Shown here in pieces: positions 6,501 to 24,494 of a DNA stretch of 27,942 nucleotides. Source of the DNA: a virus; IMG/VR virus record IMGVR_UViG_3300009164_000286, positions 1 through 27,942 of that record; one strand, given 5' to 3'. Position 1 is the first letter of the stretch. Every line of letters begins with the position of its first letter. The position numbers and the translations under genes were made by a program. The notes beneath the pieces were generated by a model, which worked only from the letters and a program-made list of their open reading frames with translations, was not told where the DNA came from and ran no database searches.

Positions 6501-9500
6501 TATCAAAGTAATCCAGTAACTTTTAAATTCTTAAATTCTGGCGACGTATCCACAGATATTATTAAAACATTGCGTCCCAAGGACTTGGCGAATCGACCAA
6601 TGAATTATAAGTCTCCTATTTTCTTAAATAGAGAATTGGGAGAAATGGACGAAACTGACGTCAAGTCCGCAGGCTATGTCAATGTCGGCGATGTCAATGT
6701 TCAGATATACGACTTTAATAATTATGCTGGGTTAAGCGCAATATTGGCCAACTTGGTCAGCGGATACAGAATCTGGGTGGCAAAAGACTTCAATGACGAA
6801 TGGCAAGTTTATCAAGTTGCACAAACAACCAACTCAGTTACCACAATAGAATACAGTCTAGATAACAAAGCCAAAATAACAATGGCTGACGATCACGGAT
6901 TGCAAATTGGCGATGTATTTGCAATTAGAAACTTTGAAACCAATTTTGATGGATTCTATCAAGTATTAAATGTCGAAACATCTGATACATTGATTTGTAT
7001 TATCCCTGATGCGTTAATTCCTATACTGCTACGTGATAACGTAGAAGGCGAAGGAGAACTATTTACTTTACAAAGATCACGTTACTACACCGTGGCAGAT
7101 CGTGATGCTGATATTACTAAAAACTTTCACGCCACTGGCGACCGCGTATGGGTGGACAACAACGGCAGAAACATTTGGACAGTGTATGACTATGCAGGTG
7201 GATCGGTTGGCAACTTCAGTGGGCAAAATGGGTTCTGGGGAATAGAAGATGGATCCATTACTTTGCGTTCCACAGGATTGCCCTACCACTCATATGGTAA
7301 TGTGTCTATGGACACCGATGCAGTGGCACAAAACTACAACAGAACATGGCCTTTAAATGCTGGCTCAAACGTGGCAGCCACAGTGTCTACATCAACTGGT
7401 ACTGGAATTGTTGGATTCTGGTTAAACGGAGTTGCAATGGTTAGTCCCAATGCAGGAACTGTGACTCCTGAAGGGTATTTAACAGTGCCCGGGTTCACCT
7501 ATAATCTCGGATACGGAAATTACAATTTCAATGTTGACTTGGCTGGTGGAACTACCAGCAGTACAGGGCAGTATTATTACTATGGTTACGACTTTGCCAG
7601 AGCTTGGGCCACAGGCTCGGGTGCAACAAACCTATCCATAACAGATGCAGAAATTAACAACATTAACTATTACGGTGGTACGTTGTCACATGACAACGGG
7701 CATAGCAAGATCATTGGATTTGCACTAGACGGGTATCCAATCTATGGTCCTTACGGATATGATGACACCGGATCTATTAGAAGAATGATTACAGGTTATT
7801 CTCTGAAAGATCCAACATATAGAGATACAACAGAAGCATGCGATTTGGATACATATCCAATGGGCATGTTCATTGAAGATTATGTATTCGATGGCGACGG
7901 CGATTTGGATGAACACAACGGACGTTATTGTGTGACACCGGATTACCCATTGGGTACTTACGCATACTTTGCCACAGTTGATTCAACAGGCGATACTACA
8001 TATCCTTATGCAATTGGCCCTACCTACTACGGGCCTGTTGCAGAAGTGGGTAACTCGTTGATAGGCGGCGCCGGCAAGAAGCCTGACACCTTCACGTCAA
8101 TGTCCAATGTGGTTTGGACTGCTGTAGATGCTCAAACAGCCACAGTTGATATTAACAGTATTGCAGGTATGTACTTGTTTGACAATATCAATAAAAAGAT
8201 GTTGGCACATCTAGATTACATTGATCCACGCAAAGGCAAAGTGTTGGGTACTGCACAAGCAGACCTTGACTTTGTATCCACATTTGACCCAGCAAAATAC
8301 AATCAAGGCACACTTGATCAACTTCCTATAGAAGAAGATTATCACTGGAGTGACAGAGAAGTCGGAACTGTATGGTGGGATATTGATGCTGTTCGTTACT
8401 ACGACTACGAGCAAAACTCATTGGAATACAGAATTGAATATTGGGGTCGTACATTTCCTGGAAGCAGTATCCATGTTTATGAATGGATCTCTAGTAATGT
8501 ATTACCATCTGCTTATGTGAGTTCAGGTGGTGATGGTGTACCAAAGTATGCAGACGACAGTGCTTATGTAATGTTATCTTATGTTGATACCCAGACTGGC
8601 ATTATTAAAACCAAATACTATTACTGGGTACGAAACAAGGTTTCTAAAACCACAAATTCCAAAACACACAGTGTGACTGCATTGGCAGACATTATTGCCA
8701 ATCCAATAACACAGAACATACCCTATGCCGCAGTATTAAAAGATAACAGCATTGCACTTTACAACATCGGTAGTTATCTATCAGGTACAAGTACATCGTT
8801 GCACATTAATTATCGTATCAAGCTGTCTGAAAACATCATTCACAGTGAATACGATCTGTTCCAACAAGGCAATGAATCGGCTGTGATGCATCCCAGGATC
8901 GAAACCAAACTGATTGACAGTATTGTTGGATCCGATGAGCACGGTAATAGAGTTCCTGATCCTTCCCTGTTGGCAGGTGACAGAATTGGCTTGTCTAACA
9001 AGCCAAGACAAACATTAATTGTTGACAGATTAAAAGCTGTTGAAAATATAGTGGCATTTGTGAATGGTGTACTCAAAGCAAATCCGGTTGCAGCCAGATT
9101 GATTAATAAAGATTTGGTTTACTCTGATAACTTTTTTGCAGAAGAAGCATTACCGGCCACAACCGATTATGATTATGCAGTTGACACGTTTGATCAAATT
9201 TCTTATGTGAGTCCGTTGACTGCTGGAACATTTGTGGCTGGTAAACGATATGTTATTATGTTCCTCGGAACCACAAACTGGAATGCGGCAGCAGGCACCA
9301 CAGGTGTTACTTACACTGTTGGCAGTGTATTTACAGCCGTAAATGCAGGAATAGGATCAGGATCTGCTGTTTTAAGACGCATTTTAGTCAAACAAGACAG
9401 CAACTATAACAATCGCTGGACATTGTACAATAATCAATTGTCTGGTGTACCAGAACTACTAAAAACACAAACATTCAATACAAAGAACTTTTGGGACTAT

Positions 9501-11540
9501 GCCGACTGGTATGCCACCGGGTACTCTAGTAAAACATTGACAATCAACTACACAGTTGAAAAGTTTTACAATATCTATACATTAGATTTGGTGCCAGGAA
9601 ACATTGTCAAAGTCACAGGCAACAATGCCGGACTATTTGAAATCTATAAAATGGATGTCAACAGCAAGTTAGATCTAATTGGTTTAGAAAAAGGAACTAT
9701 ACAGCTGGTTGATGCATTGTATGCCAAAGTTGGTTATGATCATGACACCTTTGATATAGATTTATTTGACTATAACTCCTTTAACGAATTTAGATACGTC
9801 CTTAAAGGACTCAAAGAGGATGTATTTGTAAAAGACTTGGCAATTTATTATAACCAATTGCTGTTCTTTGTTATAGAGTACATTCTGTCAGAACAGAAAT
9901 ATGTTGACTGGATATTCAAAACCAGCTTTATCTCTATTGCACACAAACTGGAAGGGTTGATACAAACCACTTCTTATGTCAAAGATAGACAAGGTTTCTA
10001 CGAGTCCTTTATTAAGGAAGTGAAGCCTTACAGAACCAAAATCAGAGAATACACAATGTCATATTCCAAGACAGAAACTTTGGACAGTGCAACTGTGACT
10101 GACTTTGATTTACCTGCATACTATGACTCGGACGTTGGCGTTTTCCGTAGCCCCAATGGAGACTTTCCAGCCAAAGATGCATATCTATTAGACACCCGTG
10201 CAGAATATCAAGACTGGAACAACCATCACAAATATGAAATTGGTAGCATTGTATTAGATGAACCAGGGTATGGACATTTAACTAGCCCTGACATTTCAGT
10301 TGTTGGCATGGATTCTACCGGAACTGGTGCAAGTGCAAAATCAACAATCAGCAATGCGGATGGCAGTATTTTGAATATAACAATGACCGACGTAGGCAAA
10401 GATTATACAAATACACCATTGGTTGTGATCACAGGAACAGGTTCTAGTCCAACCACTGCTAACTATGTGCCATCAAAGGCCAGCCCAAGGCTGGTCAATA
10501 ATAAAGTTAGAAAAATTAAAACTACATTGCGTTTTGACAGAATTCAGTATACATCTCAAGTTGTTGACTGGCAGCCAGGAACAATATACCCATCTGGGTC
10601 GTATGTAAGCTATCAAGGACAAGCATATACAACAATTGCGTCTGCGCCTGCAAGTTCTACATTTGATAGAACTTACTTCACTGGTGTATCGGCAGACATA
10701 TTTAACAATGCCAACGACAGGATCAATGCTTTCTATAGCCCAACTGCTAGCATGGTTCCCAAAGTGTTAGCAAGACTAATGACAGGATTAGATAATCCGC
10801 GAGTAACGTCCAACATCTCAGTGGTAGTTGATACTGCGGTACAAGGTGGCGGATTTACTGGTGTAGCTATTCCAGCTGGACAGTTTGTACCTGGTGAGCA
10901 GTATATTATCACCGGCCTCGGCGACACAAATTGGGGTGCAGTTGGTGCAATATCCGGGCAAGTGGGTTTGTTGTTTACAGCAAATGCTGCCGGTTCTGGA
11001 TCTGGTAACGCGGCTGTTGCTATTTCATCGGATGCGTTTGCCAACATCAATGGTATTGCTGCCGAAAGTATCACAGTCAACGGCGGTGCGTTTGTGTACG
11101 ATATATTCAGTCATGCACCAGAAGAATTGTTACCTGGTATTACCTACGATGCATTGGCTATCAGAGTCCGTGAACGCAATTCAAACACTATTCAAAATCC
11201 AACTCAAACTTGGTTGTATCACAGATTCATTGACATGAACAAGAGTCGTGAAATTTCAACGGATATTGATCCTGCAACTACAACGACACTATCTCAACCG
11301 TTGGATGTCAACGATACTGAAATAACTGTGGTAGATGGATCTGCATTGCCTGTTCCTAATGTAGTAACATTGACTCCTGGTAAAATTTACATCAACGGAG
11401 AGCGCATTGAATACTACACTAAAAACGGAAATACCTTGGGGCAAATTCGTCGAGGTGTAGGCGGCACATCTACTCCAATGGTGCACTCAGTTGGTAGCAA
11501 AGTTGAAAGTTTAGCAGTAACAACTGCATTGTACACTTAA
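501..11540 (+). CDS. Giant virion structural (baseplate/tail) protein with YHYH domain
   Basis: This uninterrupted 3,679-residue ORF takes up about 40% of the window. Its N-terminus (LPEIFRTDTNKKFLGATLDQ, then a GFVGRKFSPTF segment) is of a type I recognise in large marine T4-like structural proteins. Visible modules: an HPWEMLGLTIKPTWWN segment near residue 1335; a first CBM5/12-like module at ~1838-1878; a YHYH-type domain at ~2262-2496 with DGYPIYGPYGYDD at 2410; two copies of a G-x-TNW module at ~2911-2961 and ~3462-3510; a glycine-containing beta repeat at ~3246-3317; a second CBM-like module at ~3356-3393; and a C-terminal INGERIEYYTKNGN segment at ~3631. No signal peptide or membrane segment is evident. 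It sits after the gp6-like gene, so a role as an extended gp7-like wedge initiator or baseplate-attached fibre is inferred. T4 gp7 is only about 1,030 residues. The start at 501 has only a weak ribosome site (ACAGGTAAACA). Confidence 0.85.
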   Translation: MAIRKTLNFLPEIFRTDTNKKFLGATLDQLISEPNLSKIDGFVGRKFSPTFTPSNNYIVETTDDRQNYQFEPAVVVKNASNGLDLYSDYKDLVDKVAYYGGITTNQDRLFRSEYYSYNPRIDLDKLVNYTRYYWLPEGPDAVTLTAGTPATPKTFAVSKVANSYRTNQTGTVNNPDITLVRGVTYRFNLGLPGFWIQTEPGIDGLKDYNTRVSSRSVFGVSNNGTGAVTFTVPARDAQDHYLASPLIDYVDFVIPSQSNQTFSSIDGSRRGAGGGASQIDGSSRYEPSMYIVFLSTSTDPNDWVDTYGNIVPVEQRNGLWELTVDETLKFVRNIDVGDRIRPRYGNHAGIEYFKNTSGQFIQSTQVTAPMSVLYYQDGTDATMKGKIIIVDEPGTAIDVDTDIIGKTSYTGSSGLTLSNGMKVQFDSTITPSSYYGKSYIVEGVGSSIRLVDFSKLPPLESTAPESNVPFDTTGFDVGRFDEPVQGVIEPEYIVMNRASQDSNAWARTNRWFHEDTLAKIAEYNGTQISDITASRAKRPVIEFEADLQLFNHGRVLLDIIDRADTDIVTIADPSTWASLTDAFAQINNKTVSDPAIKRMNYLEGQLAIFPNELDLAIRQNIYRIDFKDQAQTIIFDGTGTGTLTTTSGSTKVTGGTHFNLELETGSDIYRMDGMHIGKVAYVENESTLVLETVSGMDLTAEPFKFNKPRIELIVHKTASDYDSVTVSTGLNKKKSFWFDGTRWILSQSKTATNQEPLFDVIDAAGNSFGDKTVYTKSEFAGTKVFSYKRGSALDLVLGFGISYSNIGNSIADISFTNNFETDTFTYWPALPTSKSMSSGYLRKNLTLTEYDRVNVWATVAEPSKQYQHISAKYDGQTRYFEIDITPEAETHEPNIKVFVNNSIIDRTAFTIETIGVRKAVFIETHELSIGDSVDIVIYSNETSDLGYYQIPSNLEFNALNQSIETITLGQVRGHWFAIGRNTRGVTGEILSVSNLRDLDTRFQSGSILQHSAPSVYSSLFLIDPQINFMNSIELARRDYTKFKNKFLELCLTLTELDPNNPSAGVDTILQTINNVKNTTFAWHYTDMVPWSENYVTDAYRINDINVRSYSIANGYSTVGEELYPNSGLNNKAVLVYLNGTLLVIGKDYTLSSGSPTVTLTSAVALTYKDLLVIKTYRNTDGSYVPETPTKLGLAPKYLPVIYTDNTYRNPVQVIQGHDGSITPAFNDLRDTYLLELEKRIYNNLKVNYNPELFNINSVVPGRFRNNDYSLTEFNKVVTTEFLKWVGNNQLDFSINEYFEPNDQFSWNYNRTTDAYGEPMLGYWRGIYKFYYDTDRPHTHPWEMLGLTIKPTWWNAQYGAAPYLSTNTMWADLELGYNRGTNTTDSTYARPDLSKYIPVDSSGNLLPPQAKLVRTFDGIEFSQSYAVGDHGPVESAWRRSSEYPYALQRALALLKPAEYFGLLFDVTAYSKDQTLDQYILAGNKRVTPSAIAVNGETVNNEISRASSYINWIHGYLTNLGLDAASKIRNSLSNLDVKLGYKVAGYTDKKYITALVEQFSPTSTNQSVIIPDENYIVHLNKSVPIRRATYSAVIVERTTTGYSINGYNLKNPYFTVIPSEFNGNYYTIESLTAKASVFQDFKNQKVSVPYGYEFSNKQQVVDFLVGYQRYLISQGFVFSKYDADLKQTADWILSAREFLTWSLQGWKPGNVIVLSPISNALTIFGIDAVVDGITNLTTDSQVLGPNFNAIRLDELTVLREPSLTTITSISGQTIAYADLNLVQYEHALVFDNVTVFNDIVYKPELGSRQYRLKLIGSRTADWTGELNPPGFIYQTGRIDDWQPEHDYVKADIVKYKNQNYTAIADIPGSATFKFDEWSILDSQIESGLVPNFATNASKFTDIYDIDSPSMDENFDKFSNGLIGYRSRSYLEDLGMDQTTQSKFYQGYIKSKGTKNSLASLFSGQFDNLSNSLSIYEEWGLRVGEYGAISSNQSIELVVDEAEYQSNPVTFKFLNSGDVSTDIIKTLRPKDLANRPMNYKSPIFLNRELGEMDETDVKSAGYVNVGDVNVQIYDFNNYAGLSAILANLVSGYRIWVAKDFNDEWQVYQVAQTTNSVTTIEYSLDNKAKITMADDHGLQIGDVFAIRNFETNFDGFYQVLNVETSDTLICIIPDALIPILLRDNVEGEGELFTLQRSRYYTVADRDADITKNFHATGDRVWVDNNGRNIWTVYDYAGGSVGNFSGQNGFWGIEDGSITLRSTGLPYHSYGNVSMDTDAVAQNYNRTWPLNAGSNVAATVSTSTGTGIVGFWLNGVAMVSPNAGTVTPEGYLTVPGFTYNLGYGNYNFNVDLAGGTTSSTGQYYYYGYDFARAWATGSGATNLSITDAEINNINYYGGTLSHDNGHSKIIGFALDGYPIYGPYGYDDTGSIRRMITGYSLKDPTYRDTTEACDLDTYPMGMFIEDYVFDGDGDLDEHNGRYCVTPDYPLGTYAYFATVDSTGDTTYPYAIGPTYYGPVAEVGNSLIGGAGKKPDTFTSMSNVVWTAVDAQTATVDINSIAGMYLFDNINKKMLAHLDYIDPRKGKVLGTAQADLDFVSTFDPAKYNQGTLDQLPIEEDYHWSDREVGTVWWDIDAVRYYDYEQNSLEYRIEYWGRTFPGSSIHVYEWISSNVLPSAYVSSGGDGVPKYADDSAYVMLSYVDTQTGIIKTKYYYWVRNKVSKTTNSKTHSVTALADIIANPITQNIPYAAVLKDNSIALYNIGSYLSGTSTSLHINYRIKLSENIIHSEYDLFQQGNESAVMHPRIETKLIDSIVGSDEHGNRVPDPSLLAGDRIGLSNKPRQTLIVDRLKAVENIVAFVNGVLKANPVAARLINKDLVYSDNFFAEEALPATTDYDYAVDTFDQISYVSPLTAGTFVAGKRYVIMFLGTTNWNAAAGTTGVTYTVGSVFTAVNAGIGSGSAVLRRILVKQDSNYNNRWTLYNNQLSGVPELLKTQTFNTKNFWDYADWYATGYSSKTLTINYTVEKFYNIYTLDLVPGNIVKVTGNNAGLFEIYKMDVNSKLDLIGLEKGTIQLVDALYAKVGYDHDTFDIDLFDYNSFNEFRYVLKGLKEDVFVKDLAIYYNQLLFFVIEYILSEQKYVDWIFKTSFISIAHKLEGLIQTTSYVKDRQGFYESFIKEVKPYRTKIREYTMSYSKTETLDSATVTDFDLPAYYDSDVGVFRSPNGDFPAKDAYLLDTRAEYQDWNNHHKYEIGSIVLDEPGYGHLTSPDISVVGMDSTGTGASAKSTISNADGSILNITMTDVGKDYTNTPLVVITGTGSSPTTANYVPSKASPRLVNNKVRKIKTTLRFDRIQYTSQVVDWQPGTIYPSGSYVSYQGQAYTTIASAPASSTFDRTYFTGVSADIFNNANDRINAFYSPTASMVPKVLARLMTGLDNPRVTSNISVVVDTAVQGGGFTGVAIPAGQFVPGEQYIITGLGDTNWGAVGAISGQVGLLFTANAAGSGSGNAAVAISSDAFANINGIAAESITVNGGAFVYDIFSHAPEELLPGITYDALAIRVRERNSNTIQNPTQTWLYHRFIDMNKSREISTDIDPATTTTLSQPLDVNDTEITVVDGSALPVPNVVTLTPGKIYINGERIEYYTKNGNTLGQIRRGVGGTSTPMVHSVGSKVESLAVTTALYT
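6012..6134 (+). repeat. CBM5/12-like module, copy 1, inside the giant protein
   Basis: Residues ~1838-1878 read DWQPEHDYVKADIVKYKNQN followed by YTAIADIPG and a closing W. The spacing W-Q-P ... Y ... V-x-Y-x-x-x-x-Y-T/A ... W is that of short chitin-binding type modules (CBM5/12-like). A second copy lies at 10566-10679 and also begins DWQP. Sugar binding is inferred from the pattern alone. Confidence 0.45.
7284..7990 (+). other. YHYH-type domain coding segment within the giant protein
   Basis: Residues ~2262-2496. The core signature is DGYPIYGPYGYDDTG at residue 2410, preceded by SHDNGHSKIIGFAL and followed by NGRYCVTPDYPLGTYAYFAT at ~2473. In YHYH proteins the last element usually carries the Y-H-Y-H residues; here it reads TYAYF, so the histidine is replaced while the flanking framework is kept. 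The biochemical function of YHYH domains is not established. They occur in secreted bacterial proteins and in phage structural proteins. Confidence 0.75.
9231..9383 (+). repeat. G-x-TNW module, copy 1, in the giant protein
   Basis: Residues ~2911-2961 carry FVAGKRYVIMFLGTTNWNA, then VGSVFTAVNAG and GSGSA. A second copy at 10884-11030 carries FVPGEQYIITGLGDTNWGA, then VGLLFTANAAG and GSGNA. The matching order shows a duplicated structural module, probably a small beta domain. I recognise this pattern as a recurrent element in marine phage virion proteins. Its role is unknown. Confidence 0.7.
10566..10679 (+). repeat. CBM5/12-like module, copy 2, inside the giant protein
   Basis: Residues ~3356-3393 begin DWQPGTIYPSGSYVSYQGQA and continue YTTIASAPASSTFDRTYF. 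It aligns with the copy at 6012-6134 by DWQP, the Y-x(n)-V-x-Y core, the following YT-x-IA, and the P-x-S-x-TF tail. It lies just upstream of the second G-x-TNW module, in the C-terminal 330 residues. Confidence 0.45.
10884..11030 (+). repeat. G-x-TNW module, copy 2, in the giant protein
   Basis: Residues ~3462-3510. It shares with copy 1 (9231-9383) the order F-V-x-G-x-x-Y-x-I, L-G-x-TNW, V-G-x-x-F-T-A and a G-S-G repeat. The two copies are about 550 residues apart, so this is a dispersed rather than tandem duplication. Confidence 0.68.
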
Positions 11541-11717: not shown

Positions 11718-12344
11718 ATGCAAACACACGAATCATTACAACCAAGCGTACAGGGTTTTGTTAAAATTACCGATATTTCGGATCAAAATAATCCTGTTGT
11801 ACTAGTAGACAAGAAGAATGCCATTCACTATGAAAACATGAGTGAAGCATTGGCTTCCAGTCTGTCCAATAGAGGATCAAATTACATATACGAAATGCAA
11901 TTTGGTAACGGTGGTACCAGCGTTGACCCAACAGGCATTGTGAACTATTTGCCGCCCAATGTGAATACACAAAATGCAGACTTGTATTCACCTACTTATT
12001 CTAAAGTAGTAGATGACACAAGCGAAAGCAATACAGATCCTGTTAGAAATAAAATGGAAGTTAGACATATTCCTGGCACAGTTTATTCTGACATACTGGT
12101 AACTTGCTTGCTAGATTACGGCGAACCAGCAGGGCAAACAGCATTTGATAACACTGCCACTACAACAGACTTGTTTGCGTTCGACGAGCTTGGCCTAAAA
12201 GGCTGGAGTGCAGCCGGCGCAGGTACTGGCAAATTGTTAACGCATGTTATTTTTCATCCTGTGCAAAAGAGTCTTAACAGATTGATTCAAATCGAGTACA
12301 CAGTTCGAATACAGTCTCTAACTAACCTAACAGGTACTGCATAA
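11718..12344 (+). CDS. Virion structural protein, 208 aa
   Basis: Residues ~12-40 contain QGFVKITDISDQNNPVVLVD followed by KKNAIHYENMSEALASSL, a start I recognise from small structural proteins in marine T4-like tail modules. The middle has MEVRHIPGTVYSDILVTCLL, and the C-terminus has LLTHVIFHPVQKSLNRLIQI, a beta-rich pattern. There are no membrane segments. An AGGAAGAG sequence about 10 bases before the ATG is a good ribosome site and lies in the end of the 51-aa ORF. Its position between the giant baseplate protein and the S74 fibre suggests an adaptor or baseplate accessory protein. No precise T4 homologue can be named. Confidence 0.72.
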   Translation: MQTHESLQPSVQGFVKITDISDQNNPVVLVDKKNAIHYENMSEALASSLSNRGSNYIYEMQFGNGGTSVDPTGIVNYLPPNVNTQNADLYSPTYSKVVDDTSESNTDPVRNKMEVRHIPGTVYSDILVTCLLDYGEPAGQTAFDNTATTTDLFAFDELGLKGWSAAGAGTGKLLTHVIFHPVQKSLNRLIQIEYTVRIQSLTNLTGTA

Positions 12345-12363
12345 AAGCAGGCTATATTAAATG

Positions 12364-12371
12364 GTTAAATA
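12364..12371 (+). promoter_or_regulatory. Possible late promoter box (GTTAAATA)
   Basis: GTTAAATA contains the TAAATA core of the T4-type late box and lies 26 bases upstream of the S74 fibre start, in the 53-base gap between genes. It matches the consensus at only 6 of 8 positions. Confidence 0.22.
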
Positions 12372-12397
12372 TAATAATAATTCGGAGTTAAAGTTTC

Positions 12398-13741
12398 ATG
12401 GCATATAATATAAATTTGTCAAAGGGCGATTTGCTAACTGTTGTTGAAGACGGAACAGCAGACATCAGTTCTGCCAGTGTTGCACTAGTAGGCAAAAATT
12501 TCCCTGGGTATGGCGAGTACATCAACGAAAATTTTGTACACATGGTAGAGAATTTTGCTGGCACAAATGCTCCAGCAAATCAGTTAACTGGCCAGCTCTG
12601 GTATGACACAGCCAACAATGTTTTAAAAGTTTGGGATGCCACTGCTTGGATTTCAGCAGGTAAAGGTAGCATGATCAATGACGTTGTTAGTGCAACACCG
12701 CATTATTTAACCTTTGTTAACTCCAGCACAGGTAGCCCGGATCTCAAAGTGTCGGCCAACAAAGGCATTGTGTTTGTTCCTAGTTCAGGAAACTTTGGTT
12801 TAGGCGTATCAATACCTGCGTCAAAGTTTGTGGTAAACACCAATGTAAGCACATCTGTTGCAAACGCAAGTCCGAACAGCGGTGTCAACATGCATGTGCA
12901 TGGTGGAAATGGCTTGGCACAAGGTATTCTATTTGATGCCTACGGTGGCAGTGTTGCAGTTGGTGACTATAGTGTAAACAATGCATCTAGTCTGATACTA
13001 CGTCGCAGTAATGGTCTTGCCAGCACACCGCAAGCTGTTAAAATAAATGATGTAATTGGAACTTTGGCCGGTCAAGGATATAACGGAACTGCGTATAGCA
13101 CAAACAGAGCCAGTATCACTTACGTTGCAACTGAAAACTGGGCCGCAGGTGCCAATGGCACCAAGATAGAATTACGTACCACTGCAACTGGTGCATCTTC
13201 CTCGTCAGTGGCGCTAACTGTACAATCTAATGGTGACTTAGTAACTCCGGGTAACTTTACTTCAGCAACTGTTACTGCCGCCAATGTTACTGCTACTCTC
13301 ATTGCTGGTACGCTAACAACAGCGGCGCAGACTGGTATTACCAGTGTTGGAACATTGACCGGCTTAAATGTGGCAGGAAGTGCCACAATCAGTGGCACAT
13401 TGACAGTGACAGGATTTATCAAGAGTGCGGCAGACATTACTGCCTACTACACATCTGATGAACGTCTCAAGACCCAAGTTGAAAAGATTAACAATGCTCT
13501 TGCAAAAACTGTGTCATTAGATGGTGTTACATTTAACTGGAACGATCTGGCCATTGGCAAAGATACCACGGAACGAGAGTCTGGTGTACTAGCTCAGCAA
13601 GTGTTGCTTGCATTGCCAGAAGCTGTGGCCGAGCGTGAAAATGGTTACTTGGCAGTACGTTACGAAAAACTTGTACCGTTATTAATCGAAGCAATTAAAG
13701 AACTCAAAGCCGAAGTTGATGCTTTAAAGAAATCTGCTTGA
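12398..13741 (+). CDS. Tail fibre with C-terminal peptidase S74 (intramolecular chaperone) domain
   Basis: This 447-residue protein starts with MAYNINLSKGDLL and a conserved attachment region (GYGEYINENFVHMVENFA, then LTGQLWYDTANN). A beta-rich shaft follows, with repeats of the type GITSVGTLTGLNV at ~residues 300-325. The last 95 residues are an S74 domain: SDERLK places Ser353 and Lys358 five apart, the spacing of the catalytic Ser-Lys dyad in endosialidase-type chaperones. The helical tail (LVPLLIEAIKELKAEVDALK) is the usual trimer-forming end. Self-cleavage before Ser353 is predicted after trimer folding. A GGAG site lies about 13 bases before the ATG. A role as receptor-binding or baseplate-associated fibre is inferred. 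Confidence 0.88.
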   Translation: MAYNINLSKGDLLTVVEDGTADISSASVALVGKNFPGYGEYINENFVHMVENFAGTNAPANQLTGQLWYDTANNVLKVWDATAWISAGKGSMINDVVSATPHYLTFVNSSTGSPDLKVSANKGIVFVPSSGNFGLGVSIPASKFVVNTNVSTSVANASPNSGVNMHVHGGNGLAQGILFDAYGGSVAVGDYSVNNASSLILRRSNGLASTPQAVKINDVIGTLAGQGYNGTAYSTNRASITYVATENWAAGANGTKIELRTTATGASSSSVALTVQSNGDLVTPGNFTSATVTAANVTATLIAGTLTTAAQTGITSVGTLTGLNVAGSATISGTLTVTGFIKSAADITAYYTSDERLKTQVEKINNALAKTVSLDGVTFNWNDLAIGKDTTERESGVLAQQVLLALPEAVAERENGYLAVRYEKLVPLLIEAIKELKAEVDALKKSA

Positions 13742-13763
13742 TTTATTAAAATAGGAAATTGCT

Positions 13764-16229
13764 GTGACTTTACCAATTTGGACAACCAACCCAAACACAT
13801 CATTATCGACCACACAGATTCAATCAGAATTTGGTGGCGATGCTCCAACTAATCTAAGCGAATATTATCGCAATGGTTCGGCAGGTTACGTAACAGGTGA
13901 TCGAGTTGGATTTCCCAATGGAGTGTCAACTCTAATTCCGGTGCTGGGAAATCCATTGAGTATCAGTAACTTCTATGGTGCCAGCGCAGTTGGCTATGCC
14001 ATTACCACAAATAAACCCTCCTACGACGAAGGCGAAACAATGACAATAAGTGTCACTGCACCAGCAACGAACGGCACTACACTATATTGGACCATAGAGG
14101 ATTCAACAACTACAATTACTATTAGTCCAACAACATTGTCGGCTGGCGTCAAAGGCGGCGCACAACTTGAACCAGTCTCACAAGTACTAACAGCATCCGG
14201 TGGCACAGCACCGTATACATTTTCAATTGTGGTAGGATCTTTGCCGGCGGGTGTTACGTTATCATCTGCTGGATTATTGTCAGGATTTCCAACATCGGCT
14301 GGTGTAACAACTTTCACGGTGCAAGCACTTGACAGTCAAGGCAATGGCGGTGTACGTCAATATTCTTTGTCTGTGGGCAATGCAGGATATGCACCATTGA
14401 CTCTAACAAGCGGTACCCAAGGAGTTGCATACAGTCAACAACTGTCAGTGACAGGGGGCACAGCACCATTGGTATACACTGCACTAGGAAATCTTCCAGC
14501 TGGACTTTCCATATCATCCAGTGGTTTAATATCCGGAACACCAACAGTCAATGGCACATTCAATGCCAGTTTTAGAGTGGGATTCAATGGCGGTGGTGCA
14601 GGCAACTCAGGGATCACTATCTCTTACACAAATTGGACTATAAATGTTCAGTCATACGGTGCCTCAACTATAGGACCAAGCCCTTTGCCTGTTGGGTATT
14701 CTGGTCAAAGTTACAGCCAGCAATTGACATTTACAGGTGATGTAGTGGCACCTGTTGTCTTTGAGCATGCGGCAACACCGGGTCAAACTCATTCTGGTAA
14801 CGGAGCACCTTATGTAAATCCTTTACCAGACGGAGTTTCGTTGTCGTCAACTGGCCTATTGTCTGGCACCATCGGTCCAAACTGGTTTGGTTCTTACTCA
14901 TTGTTGGTCAAAGCAACAGATTCTAGACAGAACTCCGTTACCAGTCAAATAACCTGGCCTGTGATTAGAATTACTACAGGTTATATATTACCGTCCAGTT
15001 TACCAGCAGGCACAAGGAATACCGCATATACTCAACAACTTTCCGTGAACAGGAATGACGGAAACACTTATAGGTTCGCTAGCACTAGTGGTTTACCAAC
15101 AGGGCTATCGTTGACATCCGGCGGCTTGCTGTCTGGTACACCCACAGTTAATGGAACATTTTCGGTGGGTGTTGTAGCAGGATATGATCCCGGCGACAAC
15201 GATCCCAGTAACGATTATGATCGTTATACAGCAACTTACAGTTTGGTAATCAATGCTCCGGCTGTTATTACTATTAGTATTAGTCCGAGTAGTTTACCTT
15301 CGGCCACACGAAATATTGCGTTTAGTCAACAATTATCAGCATCAGGCGGAACAGGTATTTACACATATTCGAAAACTGGTTCATTGCCAAACGGAATAAC
15401 ATTAAACAGCAGTGGATTACTGGCTGGTACTCCTACTGTGACAGGAACTTTTTCTATAGATGTTACTGCAACTGATTCCAATAGTAATACTGGATCAAAG
15501 ACTTACAGTTTAGTAGTTGGGTCTGTTACTATTAGTATTAGTCCAAGCAGTTTATCGGCAGCCACACAAAATAGTGCATTTAGTCAACAGTTGTCAGCAT
15601 CAGGTGGAACAGCGCCTTATACATATTCAAACACTGGGTCATTGCCGTCTGGGCTGTCATTGACCAGCGGTGGATTAATATCTGGTACTCCTACTGCAAC
15701 AGGAACCTATTCTATAGATATTACTGCAACCGATGCTAATAATAATACCGGGTCGGCGAGTTATAGCTTAGTGGTTGGGGCTGCTGCCGCTCCTGCTTCT
15801 ACATTGAGACTTTACGTGGCATCTGGCGCTGGAGGATCGAGTGTTTACGAAACAAACAATCCTGCTTATATCGATATTCAAATTTATAATGAATATCCAG
15901 TTGGGCATGTATTTAATACTGGCGATTATGATAGAGCGTCGTGGCAAATTTCTAGCCCAAATAATGTTATTACACCCAATGATTTTACTAGTATGACATT
16001 ATGGAGTGGTGCCACACCCGATAACGATAGTGTGACAATAAATCCTATAACTTCTCTATCAGGCACAATTGATTTAAAATATTTTGCAGGCGGGTCCGGC
16101 AGAAACATGCTTGGAGTGATTACCTTATACGTTAGGGCTGACGGTATATCCGAAGGTATAGAAGAATTTACCTTTACAGTAACAGTCAACGGCCAAACAG
16201 CAAATGAAACTATATACATCAGAGACTAA
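13764..16229 (+). CDS. Tail fibre/adhesin with virion-attachment N-terminus and six He_PIG-like Ig modules
   Basis: This 821-residue protein starts at GTG with AGGAAA about 8 bases upstream. Residues ~1-75 (LSTTQIQSEFGGDAPTNLSE ... LSISNFYGAS) are an N-terminal domain I recognise from marine phage tail proteins, probably for attachment to the virion. Residues ~80-115 (YAITTNKPSYDEGETM ... LYWTIED) look like the first half of a Calx-beta-like domain. Then come six He_PIG-like modules at ~123-207, 208-299, 300-404, 406-498, 499-586 and 587-677, each with YSQQLS or a variant, LPAGLSLSSxGLLSGTP and a closing Y-SLVV. Residues ~678-821 form a separate beta domain ending VNGQTANETIYIRD. Such modules are typical of surface adhesins, so a role in host contact is inferred. 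The apparent half-domain near residue 115 suggests an insertion. Confidence 0.8.
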   Translation: MTLPIWTTNPNTSLSTTQIQSEFGGDAPTNLSEYYRNGSAGYVTGDRVGFPNGVSTLIPVLGNPLSISNFYGASAVGYAITTNKPSYDEGETMTISVTAPATNGTTLYWTIEDSTTTITISPTTLSAGVKGGAQLEPVSQVLTASGGTAPYTFSIVVGSLPAGVTLSSAGLLSGFPTSAGVTTFTVQALDSQGNGGVRQYSLSVGNAGYAPLTLTSGTQGVAYSQQLSVTGGTAPLVYTALGNLPAGLSISSSGLISGTPTVNGTFNASFRVGFNGGGAGNSGITISYTNWTINVQSYGASTIGPSPLPVGYSGQSYSQQLTFTGDVVAPVVFEHAATPGQTHSGNGAPYVNPLPDGVSLSSTGLLSGTIGPNWFGSYSLLVKATDSRQNSVTSQITWPVIRITTGYILPSSLPAGTRNTAYTQQLSVNRNDGNTYRFASTSGLPTGLSLTSGGLLSGTPTVNGTFSVGVVAGYDPGDNDPSNDYDRYTATYSLVINAPAVITISISPSSLPSATRNIAFSQQLSASGGTGIYTYSKTGSLPNGITLNSSGLLAGTPTVTGTFSIDVTATDSNSNTGSKTYSLVVGSVTISISPSSLSAATQNSAFSQQLSASGGTAPYTYSNTGSLPSGLSLTSGGLISGTPTATGTYSIDITATDANNNTGSASYSLVVGAAAAPASTLRLYVASGAGGSSVYETNNPAYIDIQIYNEYPVGHVFNTGDYDRASWQISSPNNVITPNDFTSMTLWSGATPDNDSVTINPITSLSGTIDLKYFAGGSGRNMLGVITLYVRADGISEGIEEFTFTVTVNGQTANETIYIRD
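15268..15783 (+). repeat. Two tandem 258-bp repeats encoding He_PIG-like modules
   Basis: The blocks starting TTACTATTAGTATTAGTCC at 15268 and 15526 are offset by exactly 258 bases (86 codons) and match closely in DNA as well as protein (ISISPSSL, FSQQLSASGGT, TGSLP, GTPT, ATD). Upstream modules match only in protein. High DNA identity points to a recent duplication and makes copy-number change by recombination likely. Confidence 0.8.
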
Positions 16230-16249
16230 CAATAACTTAAAATAAAAAT

Positions 16250-19200
16250 ATGGCAATAAATGCATCAGACTTTAACCCGGCCAGTTTATCGGGCACAATA
16301 ACAATAAACTCCAGTGCAGGTACTTCGAGTCCTGTTATAGTGGCGGACACAACAACAGAAGGTCCAGAAAAGTTTGTTATTAAACTAAGAACTGGTAGTG
16401 TATCTGGACCGGTGGTTGCCACCAGTGGTACTATCACCATCAACGATACCAGCCTTGATGCAGTGGTACCTCCAGTTGAACCTCCAGTTGACAGCACCCC
16501 AACATACAGTTTACAAGCCAACGTGGCATCAGTTAGTGAAGGCCAGGGTGTTAGATTTACATTGGTTACGACTAATTTATCAAACGGAAATGCTGTACCT
16601 TATGCCATCTCAGGAGTTAGTTCTGCAGACATTGGTGGTGCATCTTTGACTGGTAATTTCTCAATTAGCAATAATACAGCTTCTCTAGATTTGGCAATAA
16701 CTGCTGATTTGGCAACAGAAGGAACTGAAACATTAACACTTAGATTGACTTCCGCTCCTAGTAACCCATCTGTGCCTATTACAGTTGTTGACTCATCTGT
16801 TGCGCCACCAACGCCGGTTGCAACATACGAATTAACAAATGCAGTATATGGTAGTACACCAGCCACAACAACTACTGCAAATGAAGGAGTGCAGGCTCTT
16901 GTATTTTATTTAAGTATAAACAATGCCAGTAATCAATGGGGTAATGATGTTCCATATACTATAACTGGTATTTCACGGCAGGATATCGGAGTAGGTGCTG
17001 TGTTAGGCGGAAGTTTTCACATACCGTTGACTCCTACATCAAATCCTGTTGCAAGCGTGACCTATTCTATCACTGCAGACCAGGCAACCGAAGGTGTTGA
17101 AACGCTGGTTATGACATTAGACGGTACAAATATAAGTACTTCTGTTACCATTCTTGATACATCGACTACTCCTGCATTACCGCCCACATACAATCTTACA
17201 AGCACTACTCGTAGTTATGGTCCAACAAATCAACAGGTCTACGAGTATGTGAACCCACCGGGGTCTGCTTATGTAGATTTTATATTGAATACTACTAACA
17301 TAGTACCCGGAACACAAGTGCCTTTTACAATCTCTGGAATACAACAAGGAGATGTTACTAGTCCTGGACTAACATGGAATGCTGCCATTTCTAAATACAC
17401 TGGAGCATTTGTAATGCAGACTGAAGACGGTCCGGCAGGATATCCAGTTAATAATCAATTTGGAAAAATCAAAGTTGATATAGTAGCTGATGCTCTGACA
17501 GAAGGAAACGAAACCATGGAATTGTCCTTGGATAACGGACAAGCATCGGTTGCAATGACAATTGTCGACAATTCTCTTTCTGCCCCAGCAGTGTTCACAG
17601 TAACCCCGGCTTCTTCTAGTGTCAACGAAGGAAGCCCCATGATATACACGGTGGGTGGTTCTAATATTATAAATGGAACTTATTATTGGACTATACAGAA
17701 TAGCATGAATTTCCTCAATGACTTCGGGACATTCAGTGGCTCGTTTACAATCACAAACAACGCTGGAACATTTAGTGTAACTCCTTCTGCAGACTTATTA
17801 ACAGAAGGATCGGAAGCATTTAGTATAGAACTTAGAACAGGTTCAGCCACTGGACCGGTGGTATTTACTGGTGCGCCGGTTACCATCAATGATACCAGCG
17901 TACCACCCGTTATAACAGGATCGGCCACGATCTCAGCAGCCAACACTAGATCGGTTCCGACCACGTTGCCTGCGGCAGCAACTTGGGTTGCATTCAGAGT
18001 AATTGGCGCCGGTGGAAGTGGCGGCGGACCAGATGGAAGTGGCGCAGGTGGAAGTGGCGGCGGAGCTCAATATGCCAAAGGCATTGTAAAATTACCAGCA
18101 ACTTCTGGACCAAAAACCATTTACGGATTTGCAGGACGTCCGGGACGTGGGGGAAGACTACAGGCTAAAACAGTAGAAGATGGTGGAATTGGAGAAAATT
18201 GTACTCCTGCAGTCAGTGCAAACGGAGCAATTGGTCAAGCAGAATACAGCAGGGGATCATCTGGTGGCGGTGGAGCAGGTGGCGGCGGTTCCAGTTTATA
18301 TTTTCAAAAGCCCGACGGCACATTTGTACCAATTGTGTTCACCGGCGGTGGTGGCGGTGGCGGTGGTGGCACCAATCGACGAGGCGACTATGGAAATGCA
18401 AACTGGGACAACAAAGGGTTCATTACCTTTGGTGGTGGAATTACCGGCTCAACTGTGGGAAATGGATTGGTAGCCATATATGGTGGTGCTGATGGTGGTG
18501 CTGGAGGTGGCGGCGGTGGTGGTGCTGGCGCCCAAGGGTACGCCGGACATGATAATAATTATGGATCAAAAGGTGGAAGTGCTGGTTATGTGATTCGCAA
18601 CGACAACGACGGGTTGACTTGGAGCACATTTGATTGGTACGGAATTGGACCAGTACCTCCTGCATCAGAAGGTGTTGCAGTCGATGCTCCGCAGCCTTTT
18701 CCTTGGGTATCATTTGGACGGGGCGGAATAGGAGCAGTGTATGATGGGGTGTTTGGACAAGGTGGTCAAATGGGTGCCATTGCAATTTACTGGACCACAG
18801 CTGAAACTGCCCCTGACTATTCTAATGTGCCCGACTGGGCATACCCTGCGGTGACTATTCCTGCTGGTGCATTGCCCAATAGAGACATGCAAGCAAGCAG
18901 TGCATCTGGTGTGAACTTTTATTCATGGGGATCTGTATCATACAACATTGATGGAAACATCAGTACCAGCTGTTTTATCATGAGTGACTGGGGAAATGAC
19001 CCAATCAACGGAATTGGTGAATTCCTTGAAATTCGTATAACATCCGCGGCACCCAGTAACGGATTGGCACGTGGTGGCTTGAACTCGAATATTGTAGAAA
19101 ATACTTGGACACCTTTGAAGCCGATGGCATCGTATGGCTATTACATTACAAGTACTGAAAACTATCTTGATGTAACTGTATCGATTCGTCGCAGAGATAA

Positions 19201-19273
19201 TCAGGCTGTACTTCGTACTGTGACTTACTATAATCTAACACAACCTTCAGGATATGTTCAAGGTGTGTATTAA
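16250..19273 (+). CDS. Tail fibre with Calx-beta-like repeats, glycine-rich domain and C-terminal putative receptor domain
   Basis: This protein has 1,007 residues. Residues 1-65 are the second half of a Calx-beta-like domain (LRTGSVSGPVVATSG, TITINDTS). Four fuller repeats follow at ~83-190, 191-310, 311-447 and 448-556, marked by S-V-x-EG, A-D-x-x-TEG-x-E and V-D/N-x-S. Residues ~557-860 are extremely glycine-rich, with runs such as GGGGGGGGG, like the phage Gly-rich tail-tip domain. Residues ~860-1007 are a separate beta domain that could contact the receptor. The ATG at 16250 is forced by an in-frame TAA at 16238, but the leader is only A/T-rich with no clear ribosome site. Starting in mid-domain is odd and fits a split ancestral fibre gene. 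It ends one base before the converging reverse gene. Confidence 0.78.
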   Translation: MAINASDFNPASLSGTITINSSAGTSSPVIVADTTTEGPEKFVIKLRTGSVSGPVVATSGTITINDTSLDAVVPPVEPPVDSTPTYSLQANVASVSEGQGVRFTLVTTNLSNGNAVPYAISGVSSADIGGASLTGNFSISNNTASLDLAITADLATEGTETLTLRLTSAPSNPSVPITVVDSSVAPPTPVATYELTNAVYGSTPATTTTANEGVQALVFYLSINNASNQWGNDVPYTITGISRQDIGVGAVLGGSFHIPLTPTSNPVASVTYSITADQATEGVETLVMTLDGTNISTSVTILDTSTTPALPPTYNLTSTTRSYGPTNQQVYEYVNPPGSAYVDFILNTTNIVPGTQVPFTISGIQQGDVTSPGLTWNAAISKYTGAFVMQTEDGPAGYPVNNQFGKIKVDIVADALTEGNETMELSLDNGQASVAMTIVDNSLSAPAVFTVTPASSSVNEGSPMIYTVGGSNIINGTYYWTIQNSMNFLNDFGTFSGSFTITNNAGTFSVTPSADLLTEGSEAFSIELRTGSATGPVVFTGAPVTINDTSVPPVITGSATISAANTRSVPTTLPAAATWVAFRVIGAGGSGGGPDGSGAGGSGGGAQYAKGIVKLPATSGPKTIYGFAGRPGRGGRLQAKTVEDGGIGENCTPAVSANGAIGQAEYSRGSSGGGGAGGGGSSLYFQKPDGTFVPIVFTGGGGGGGGGTNRRGDYGNANWDNKGFITFGGGITGSTVGNGLVAIYGGADGGAGGGGGGGAGAQGYAGHDNNYGSKGGSAGYVIRNDNDGLTWSTFDWYGIGPVPPASEGVAVDAPQPFPWVSFGRGGIGAVYDGVFGQGGQMGAIAIYWTTAETAPDYSNVPDWAYPAVTIPAGALPNRDMQASSASGVNFYSWGSVSYNIDGNISTSCFIMSDWGNDPINGIGEFLEIRITSAAPSNGLARGGLNSNIVENTWTPLKPMASYGYYITSTENYLDVTVSIRRRDNQAVLRTVTYYNLTQPSGYVQGVY
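18001..18540 (+). repeat. Glycine-codon-rich low-complexity tract
   Basis: The stretch is dominated by GGN codons (GGTGGCGGTGGCGGTGGTGG around 18348 and a similar run near 18495-18530). It encodes the polyglycine part of the second long fibre. Simple GGN runs are prone to slippage, so length may vary between relatives. Spurious long ORFs in other frames here come from the same composition. Confidence 0.75.
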
Positions 19274-22022: not shown

Positions 22023-23300
22023 TTATCCTTTAACTGCATCTTCATAATGTGCCCAGATACCGAATGGTGGCTCAACACCTGGGTTACCTTTAATAATCCA
22101 AACGGTATCACAGTAATCCTCGTCACCCCATCCACCAAACGGCATGCCATCTGTAAACACAATGAGTTTCTTGGGCTCAATTTGTTCATCCTTCATAAAG
22201 CGCCAGTTGGCAGTAAAGTCTGTACCACCACCGCCCTTGGGCTCATACTCCATGATATCGCTCATGTTGTCTTGTGTAAACTCTTGCATGTTGTACACTT
22301 CTGTGTCGAAACTCCAAACACTAATCTTGTAGTCATCATAACTTTCCATAATGCCTTTGACCTCGCCGAGGAAGATCTTGAGTTCTTCCTCACCAATACT
22401 GCCCGAGGTGTCAATGGCCACACACAAGTCCACAGTCTCACCGGGCTTCATGCCTGGCAGTATGGCATCCATGTGCCAACTACGGCGGTTAGGGCGGCTC
22501 CAACTAAAGTCGTTTTTAATTGTACTTTGGATCTGTTGCAACAACAGCTCTCTCCAGTCAATCACACTCTCTGTCATGTCTTTAATTAAACGTTGGACGC
22601 CTTCTGGAAGTTCACCTGCGCCACAAGCCTGTGCCGCTTGCAAGACGGCTTCTTTGATCTCGTCTCGCAGGGCTTTGGCTTCTGCTTTGCTTAGGCGTGG
22701 TCGGCCATCCTTGCCTTCCGTTTGGTCACCATCTTTGTCGCCGTCGCCATCTTGTTCCTCATCACCTTCTTCCTCCAAGTGCTCATCTAACATTTGTTGC
22801 ATGAGCTTTTGGAGATCGATTTTTTTGGCATGTTTGTACAAGTCGTCGTAAACTTCCTCGAAGCTCATGCCTTTGTATTTGCGGTCATACAAGATAGGTA
22901 CAGTGGTAATCTTTTGACCAATATTGTAATCTATTAGGTCACCATTGACACAATAGTCTGCGGCAATGTTACTTAACACAGGATCTCGGTCACCTCGACG
23001 TCCTAGGTGGTCATAAACTACGTGCAACACCTCATGTCCAAACAAGAACTCGCATTCCTTAAGGCTAAGGCGATTGATGAACTCGCTGTTGTACCAAAAG
23101 GTTCTTCCGTCTGTTGCGGCAGTAGGGCACCATTTGTCTGCGTTAACTAGTTTTAAACGAGTTGCCAAGTTACCAAAGAACCCGGCCCGCAACAGGAGTC
23201 CAACACGAGCGGTGATCAACTTTTCTCGAGATGACGCATCTATCCTAGGGTTTGTCTCGGTTACTACTTTGTCTTTGCTTGATAGGGTTGTATCACTCAT
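22023..23300 (-). CDS. VWA-domain protein with N-terminal HExxH metallopeptidase-like domain (MoxR partner)
   Basis: This 425-residue protein has an N-terminal domain with a zinc-peptidase motif HEVLH (His89, Glu90, His93) followed by DHLGRRGDRDP and NIAADYCVNGDLI, the arrangement of the DUF2201-type metallopeptidase-like family. Residues ~172-200 are a very acidic linker. The C-terminal VWA domain carries a MIDAS: DTSGS (Asp297, Ser299, Ser301), GGGGTDF (Thr360) and FTDG (Asp384), so metal-dependent ligand binding is expected. Proteins of this type work with MoxR AAA+ ATPases, and a MoxR gene is immediately upstream. The substrate is unknown. It has its own consensus promoter, and AAAGGAT about 10 bases before the ATG. 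Confidence 0.88.
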   Translation of the reverse strand: MSDTTLSSKDKVVTETNPRIDASSREKLITARVGLLLRAGFFGNLATRLKLVNADKWCPTAATDGRTFWYNSEFINRLSLKECEFLFGHEVLHVVYDHLGRRGDRDPVLSNIAADYCVNGDLIDYNIGQKITTVPILYDRKYKGMSFEEVYDDLYKHAKKIDLQKLMQQMLDEHLEEEGDEEQDGDGDKDGDQTEGKDGRPRLSKAEAKALRDEIKEAVLQAAQACGAGELPEGVQRLIKDMTESVIDWRELLLQQIQSTIKNDFSWSRPNRRSWHMDAILPGMKPGETVDLCVAIDTSGSIGEEELKIFLGEVKGIMESYDDYKISVWSFDTEVYNMQEFTQDNMSDIMEYEPKGGGGTDFTANWRFMKDEQIEPKKLIVFTDGMPFGGWGDEDYCDTVWIIKGNPGVEPPFGIWAHYEDAVKG

Positions 23301-23324
23301 ATTAGATCCTTTGTTAGTTCTTGT

Positions 23325-23353
23325 ATTATATACTAAATTGGCACACTTGTCAA
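23325..23353 (-). promoter_or_regulatory. Consensus sigma-70 promoter for the VWA gene
   Basis: Read on the reverse strand: TTGACA (23348-23353), a 17-base spacer, and TATAAT (23325-23330). Both hexamers match the bacterial housekeeping consensus exactly with optimal spacing. Transcription would start near 23318, leaving a short leader before the ATG at 23300. It should be used by unmodified host RNA polymerase, typically early in infection. The -35 overlaps the arm of the hairpin that follows the MoxR gene. Confidence 0.88.
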
Positions 23354-23380
23354 TTTGAAGGGGACCAGCCCCTTCAAATT
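23352..23380 (-). terminator. Strong hairpin at the end of the MoxR gene
   Basis: A perfect 12-bp stem (AATTTGAAGGGG with CCCCTTCAAATT) and 5-base loop overlap the last bases of the MoxR stop codon. There is no T-run after it on the reverse strand; the distal arm merges into the TTGACA -35 box. It may act as a weak terminator, a 3'-end stabiliser, or a junction separating the two transcripts. Confidence 0.6.
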
Positions 23381-24494
23381 ATTTGTTGCCTACTGCGGCC
23401 ACAACATACTTACCAAAACGCTTGTGGAACTCATCAAACGTTTTGAGCTTGCCTGGCACAAACGGAATGCCGTAAGTTGTAATTGCAATACGACTTGCCA
23501 TTACCACCAGCTCTGTTGTAAAATTGTCCATGATGAAACGGAAGAAGTTGTCTGCCATCTTGTTCCATTCTTCCTGCTTGACAGTCTTGCCGTTAACTTT
23601 GTCATAGCTCTCTTTGAGCTCGTAGCACAGGCTAATTGTCAAACTGTACATGGCACTTACTTCTTTTACCTTTAGTTCGGTAACACGGCCCGACAGCACT
23701 TCCACAGGGTTAGGCATTTTACCTGCTACCTTGCGGTGTGCCGAGAACTTGACAGCAAGACCTTCACCTACTGCACCTGCAATAAGATCCACGTTGCCAC
23801 TATCCATTGCGTCGTCATCTTCCAAGAGCTCGCTTACAAATACCCATGAACGAGGTGTAGCAAAACTACGTGAGCTCGAACGTGGGTCAAAGTCAAACAA
23901 GTCTTGTTTGGCAAAGCTCAAGTAACCTACAACATCCTTATGGATCTTGTTAGTAACAGCCCAAGTCTGCCAGGACTCAAAGTCCACACGCATCTCTAAG
24001 TGGATGAAACGATTGCTTAGTGGGCTGGGCATACGATAGGTAACGCCTTTGTCGCTTTCTCTATTGCCTGCGGCCACCATAACAACATTGTCTGGCAATT
24101 TGTATTTGCCAATACGTCGGTTCAAAATAAGTTGGTAGGCTGCCGCTTGTACTGCCGGTGCCGCGGCGTTCATCTCGTCCAAGAACAAGATAATAACAGG
24201 GTACTTGGCGGCCATTTCCTCGTCTGGCAAGTCGATAGGAGGAGCCCAATCCATCTTGCCGTTTTCACGATTGAAGAACGGGATACCGCGAAGGTCGGTG
24301 GGATCCATCTGGCTCAAGCGAAGGTCGATCATGTGCCCTTCCAAGTCGTTGGCAATGCCTGCCACAAGATCGGATTTGCCAATGCCGGGAGGACCCCACA
24401 GGAACACTGGACGTTGACGCTTGAAGCATCGGATTAGACTGCGGCGTGCCTCTGTAGAGGTCACTGTACGATTTTCGGAAACGATCTTAGCCAT
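23379..24494 (-). CDS. MoxR-type AAA+ ATPase
   Basis: This 371-residue ATPase has Walker A GPPGIGKS (Gly34-Ser41), Walker B LFLDEMNAA (Asp106-Glu107), sensor 1 AAGN (Asn144), and a candidate arginine finger in PSPLSNRFIHLEM (Arg162). The insert between Walker A and B (DLRLSQMDPTDLRGIPFF) is typical of MoxR/RavA-related enzymes. MoxR hexamers remodel or load target proteins together with VWA-domain partners. The next gene downstream encodes such a partner with HExxH and MIDAS motifs, so the two are very likely a functional pair. AAAGG lies about 6 bases before the ATG. The gene has its own promoter and ends in a strong hairpin, so the pair is transcribed as two units. Confidence 0.92.
   Translation of the reverse strand: MAKIVSENRTVTSTEARRSLIRCFKRQRPVFLWGPPGIGKSDLVAGIANDLEGHMIDLRLSQMDPTDLRGIPFFNRENGKMDWAPPIDLPDEEMAAKYPVIILFLDEMNAAAPAVQAAAYQLILNRRIGKYKLPDNVVMVAAGNRESDKGVTYRMPSPLSNRFIHLEMRVDFESWQTWAVTNKIHKDVVGYLSFAKQDLFDFDPRSSSRSFATPRSWVFVSELLEDDDAMDSGNVDLIAGAVGEGLAVKFSAHRKVAGKMPNPVEVLSGRVTELKVKEVSAMYSLTISLCYELKESYDKVNGKTVKQEEWNKMADNFFRFIMDNFTTELVVMASRIAITTYGIPFVPGKLKTFDEFHKRFGKYVVAAVGNK

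Follow-up and report, generated by a model that had tools for sequence, protein, structure and literature searches.

Two consecutive fibre genes of a giant bacteriophage encode complementary parts of one Calx-beta-like domain, and they very probably originated when an ancestral Calx-beta fibre gene was interrupted once by a cassette, which turned one gene into two. Both parts have been retained in eight phage lineages, and we lean slightly toward the view that they represent a conserved natural split Calx-beta domain, which would act as a non-covalent joint holding a fibre protein that lacks an anchor on one that has it, while a variable Ig arm would emerge from the break. The DNA analyzed, hereafter called the window, is the whole stretch of 27,942 nucleotides of IMG/VR record IMGVR_UViG_3300009164_000286 (positions 1 to 27,942).

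Organization of the Split Domain

The two parts of the domain are encoded by gene 1 (13764-16229, 821 aa) and gene 2 (16250-19273, 1007 aa), the features of which are listed in Table 1. Half 1 reads AVGYAITTNKPSYDEGETMTISVTAPATNGTTLYWTIEDST in the window and consists of 41 residues with a He_PIG module directly after it, while half 2 reads MAINASDFNPASLSGTITI...TITINDTS and represents the 68 residues at the very start of gene 2; the first-pass annotation had already placed both of them correctly, in coordinates as well as in residues. Its count of six Ig modules also agrees with the Pfam result, which assigns six stretches of the cassette to He_PIG (PF05345) with 217 bits at a cut-off of 24. 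The terminal beta domain of gene 1 looks Calx-like by eye, yet gives no match to the Calx profile described below. Protein 2 opens with the strand-D half and shows no recognizable N-terminal anchor. Note that a Shine-Dalgarno motif is absent before gene 2 in the window, L001, L003, L012, L017, and L018, unlike gene 1 and the S74 gene, which mostly carry one in the split phages read; translation of gene 2 may possibly be coupled to that of gene 1.

Table 1. Features of the fibre gene region in the window.
Feature	Position	Strand	Remarks
208-aa conserved structural gene (phrog_11259)	11718..12344	+	Syntenic marker upstream of the fibre pair
447-aa protein with C-terminal Peptidase_S74 (endosialidase-type chaperone) domain	12398..13741	+	Directly upstream
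N-terminal domain of gene 1, presumed virion anchor	13764..13985	+	Residues 1-74, ends NFYGAS; kept in every relative, split or intact
Half 1 of the split Calx-beta-like domain	13986..14108	+	Strands A, B, C; gene 1 residues 75-115
Cassette, six He_PIG Ig-like modules	14109..15785	+	In frame with half 1; Pfam
C-terminal beta-rich domain of gene 1 and stop codon	15786..16229	+	Varies between relatives
Intergenic gap, 20 bases	16230..16249	+	No Shine-Dalgarno motif, as in other split phages read
Half 2 of the split domain	16250..16453	+	Strands D-G; gene 2 residues 1-68
Gene 2, more complete Calx-beta-like repeats	16454..17899	+	Includes intact reference copy at ~17597-17899
Gene 2, glycine-rich region and C-terminal tip	17957..19273	+	Weak Gly_rich_2 match

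The halves were mapped onto a reference profile of 105 positions that combines intact Calx-beta repeats (35 in total) found in other phages. Half 1 of the window corresponds to profile positions 1 to ~40 and half 2 to positions ~38 to 105, i.e., they are complementary within a few residues, and the same holds for all phages with the pair, in which half 1 extends from position 1 to ~36-41 and half 2 from ~38-43 to 105. By this mapping, complementary halves of one domain are located in two genes. The expectation that joining them would restore one domain is borne out by the profile score of the joined window halves (103 bits), compared to 87 bits for the intact domain of the sister phage L025, and joined halves across the split phages score 78-103 bits. 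The intact repeat reported within gene 2 was recovered as well, with 83 bits over profile positions 2-105. In database searches, Pfam gave no PF03160 match for the joined halves and only 23.8 bits for gene 2, under the curated cut-off of 27, and a PDB sequence search with the joined halves gave no significant match. A survey of 215 Calx-like domains in 61 ORFs from all fetched loci showed that truncation at an ORF start occurs only in domains that are half 2 of the gene pair, and truncation within an ORF only in those that are half 1 of the pair, apart from one internal module insertion in L021. Because domains cut by ORFs are confined to the pair with this one exception, a chance origin of the half-domains is excluded.

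As for the genomic surroundings, the protein encoded by the 208-aa gene shares 55-58% identity with proteins of the jumbo phages Phosso (Sinorhizobium) and Atu_ph07 (Agrobacterium), and the window is a fragment of a large phage, the split-fibre group consisting of giant bacteriophages. The 208-aa gene and the Peptidase_S74 gene precede the fibre pair in those split relatives whose contigs extend there. Elsewhere, the window codes for a 3679-aa structural protein (501-11540) with YHYH domain and CBM_5_12 matches within a baseplate/virion protein family, and on the minus strand, within 22023-24494, for a DUF2201/VWA protein and an adjoining protein of an ATPase family (phrog_1297).

Distribution of the Gene Pair

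The two-gene layout is common to eight lineages, represented by the window, L001, L002 plus L018, L003, L012/L023, L017, L021, and L024, where L002 and L018 are counted as one, being two contigs from one metagenome and presumably one phage. The length of half 2 is 67-68 residues across the eight lineages, L024 having a gap of a single residue. Correspondingly, gene 2 starts at the same residue in all split lineages, although it is shorter by one residue in L024, and half 1 is followed without interruption by the first He_PIG module throughout. The remainder of gene 1 is variable, the complete proteins ranging from 658 to ~1447 aa and ending in differing terminal domains. Only one ORF beginning with half 2 was found per large contig searched, adjoining the half-1 gene or genes. 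Further loci detected with half 2 (L104-L106 and L108-L112) were rejected as additional splits, as their domains are intact. When the two fibre proteins were compared by tblastn with 50,697 phage records to cover isolated phages, the matches were limited to scattered tail proteins of the He_PIG type and a small number of Calx-type structural proteins, with no homologous gene pair among them. No relative of the anchor plus half 1 was found in bacterial or archaeal genomes.

Several members of the group show particular arrangements. The 250-kb contig L024 carries two different genes for anchor plus half 1 in tandem (11898-15218 and 15215-19195), followed by a single half-2 gene from 19221 onward. 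Gene 2 of L001 (9996-10517) and L018 (1769-2290) codes for only 174 aa, comprising half 2 and a single complete Calx domain; the long repeats and the glycine-rich tip found in other relatives are missing. Calx domains in related phages also accept in-frame module insertions, as seen in L021, L012, and L017. Two Calx-beta domains are interrupted in frame without a break of the chain in gene 2 of L113 (4484-9832, residues ~560-892 and 1014-1400), a contig of L021, the inserted modules being repeats of the YGLFRKPD/FYDRPD and xYWMxxGL types; these interrupted domains may possibly serve as models of an intermediate state. A DUF4214 domain is located within the Calx repeat region, apparently between the first strands, in gene 2 of L012 (residues ~525-570) and L017 (residues ~521-566).

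Origin From an Intact Fibre Gene

A search for an uninterrupted relative without the cassette yielded two intact lineages, L025 and the more distant L004. The 98-kb contig L025 (IMGVR_UViG_3300010885_031189) carries one uninterrupted gene of 579 aa at the same locus, placed after the 208-aa and S74 genes as in the split phages, and no He_PIG match was found in this contig. The encoded protein shares the N-terminal domain of the split phages, followed by a Calx-beta domain that is complete and by a second domain, which matches the second domain of gene 2 with 68 bits; because of this match, L025 shows the domain order expected for the ancestor. It thus resembles the split pair in locus, N-terminal domain, and type of second domain, and differs in being uninterrupted and in its complete Calx domain.

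The phylogeny, which draws on environmental contigs and a single intact sister lineage, agrees with this view. L025 adjoins the split phages in the tree of the 208-aa protein (93/90 support), and the tree of this protein combined with the upstream structural protein gives 100/100 on the branch parting the eight split lineages from L025 and the outgroups. Given the intact sister and this fully supported split group, there is therefore good support for one insertion in the ancestor, accompanied by a break of the chain, and a single ancestral interruption is the simplest account of the sequences. The first-pass annotation had proposed exactly such an entry of the cassette into a single ancestral Calx-beta fibre gene, which is supported by the intact gene at the same place and the 100/100 split clade. 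A two-gene layout in all relatives, which it had named as counter-evidence, is not found, as L025 is intact. However, while the event itself stands, it is not particular to this phage: the insertion is ancient and shared by eight lineages, whose arrays have since come to differ in length as well as in content.

Constraint on Both Halves and Structure Prediction

As judged from sequence comparison, purifying selection acts on both halves, the dN/dS values of two close pairs being 0.14 and 0.17 for half 1 and 0.10 and 0.18 for half 2. The mean pairwise identities of halves 1 and 2 are 53% and 51%, respectively, compared to 60% for the N-terminal domain and 45% for the first He_PIG module. Moreover, the hydrophobic pattern correlates with that of intact domains (r = 0.81 for half 1, 0.83 for half 2), and this correlation is lost at a register shift of one residue, where values are near 0 or negative. 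Core positions are hydrophobic in 95% (half 1) and 99% (half 2) of cases in the split proteins. Since the hydrophobic pattern of the intact domain is kept, each half should still have a buried face, for which the other half would be the obvious partner.

AlphaFold models were obtained for L001. When gene 2 is modeled by itself, no strands are formed in the 30 N-terminal residues of half 2, which have pLDDT values of 40-47, although the small depth of the alignment (eight sequences) could account for this low confidence; the adjacent complete domain mostly reaches 88-94. The best structural matches of the latter are the CBD domains of CALX/NCX (Z 10.0-10.7), among them CALX-CBD1 with Z 10.7 and an rmsd of 2.6 over 98 residues. 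A complete independent fold of each half, named earlier as an observation that would speak against a split domain, is accordingly not predicted for half 2. Genes 1 and 2 of L001 share one frame, which allowed a fused single-chain model, in which the two in-frame TAA codons were read as glutamine purely as a linker, without implying readthrough in the phage; each row of the underlying alignment contained either gene 1 or gene 2, hence no pairing was suggested by it. Residues 6-35 of half 2 (model residues 671-700) rise to pLDDT 65-73 in this model, but half 1 remains at ~46-69, strand C is unformed, and no clear composite domain is present at a pTM of 0.37. The structural comparison of the fused model (VIA) covered only matches of the He_PIG array and the complete Calx domain.

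Discussion

We propose that a He_PIG array ending in a stop codon interrupted the strand C-D loop of the Calx-beta domain that immediately followed the N-terminal domain in an undivided fibre gene, that this happened once, that translation would restart at the first residue of the strand-D half, and that the gene pair has been kept since. Protein 1 would then consist of the anchor, strands A-C, and the Ig arm, and protein 2 of strands D-G, Calx-beta repeats, and the tip. The two chains probably complete the Calx-beta-like domain together and thereby form a two-armed fibre: they would associate non-covalently to complete the beta-sandwich, by which protein 2, having no anchor of its own, would hang on the anchor of protein 1, while the Ig array would be a second arm with a free end and the split domain the joint between both. 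The chain break at the end of the array may relieve strain, because the C-terminus of a long linear array would have difficulty reaching the interrupted domain again. The case for pairing draws on selection and core conservation, and branching as well as a receptor-binding role of the fibre pair are likewise putative. A strict one-to-one partnership does not predict the arrangement in L024, where two half-1 genes share one half-2 gene.

The strongest alternative, possible but clearly less probable than pairing, accepts the split as real and ancient, but leaves the halves unpaired and with roles of their own, half 1 as a linker or folded onto the first He_PIG module and half 2 as an N-terminal cap. 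Separate new roles would likewise explain the lack of decay in either half, and the fused model with no clear composite domain would be in line with them. On the other hand, such roles do not account for the fact that the hydrophobic register of the intact domain has been preserved in each half, nor does half 2 alone assume a confident predicted fold. Because the C-terminal end of gene 1 is variable, gene 1 also offers half 2 no other conserved partner.

Completion of half 2 within a homo-oligomer of protein 2, as a strand-swapped dimer or trimer independent of protein 1, appears unlikely. Phage fibres are commonly homotrimers, which speaks for this version, but half 2 provides strands D-G only, leaving strands A, B, and C unsupplied, and it is precisely the complementary part that is conserved in half 1. 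A cassette acting as a spliced intron or intein-like element, with a mature product containing one uninterrupted domain, would fit the position inside domain-coding sequence and the perfect joining of the halves; it is nevertheless highly improbable and was rejected, since no intron family was detected in the window at the Rfam gathering threshold, the cassette encodes He_PIG modules in frame with half 1, its 3' part varies among relatives, and a stop codon and a new start codon separate the halves. An artefact of assembly or sequencing, or an insertion that a single phage acquired very recently, has a negligible probability and was rejected as refuted by the relatives: He_PIG arrays do break assemblies, as L002 and L018 end inside the array, but the layout is the same in eight lineages from different metagenomes, the region sequences of L113 and L114 from different metagenomes are identical (L114 having the same gene pair as L021), and the reading frames of the cassette are open and continue that of half 1.

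Whichever role the halves play, the locus offers a case of gene fission inside a folded domain, for which the states before (L025) and after the event (eight lineages) are readable at one locus with both halves retained. If the chains pair as proposed, it would also show how domain insertion together with chain scission can turn a one-armed fibre into a two-armed one, and it would provide a natural split beta-sandwich as a candidate protein-protein joint. No description of a split Calx-beta domain or a comparable split in phage fibres was found in the open-access literature, subscription papers being mostly outside this scope.

Compared to the known Calx-beta domains (PF03160, present in CBD1 of NCX/CALX and in integrin beta-4), the neighboring complete repeat has the predicted fold of CALX-CBD1, and the split domain falls within the same phage repeat profile, but it resides in two chains instead of one, and gene 2 scores below the Pfam cut-off. 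Not all Calx-beta domains bind calcium. Incomplete Ig domains are completed by donor-strand complementation in chaperone-usher pili, which resembles the completion of an Ig-like domain by another chain proposed here; however, one strand is donated between pilin copies there, whereas the domain of the phages would be divided ~40:60 between two different proteins. Branched receptor-binding complexes built on XD or T4 gp10-like domains are known from Ackermannviridae (PMC11414711), while Pfam scans of the two fibre genes gave no XD/gp10-like match. These complexes share with the proposed fibre the attachment of several receptor-binding chains to one anchor-bearing chain via joint domains, but their joints are whole domains in contact, whereas the joint proposed here would be one domain made from two chains.
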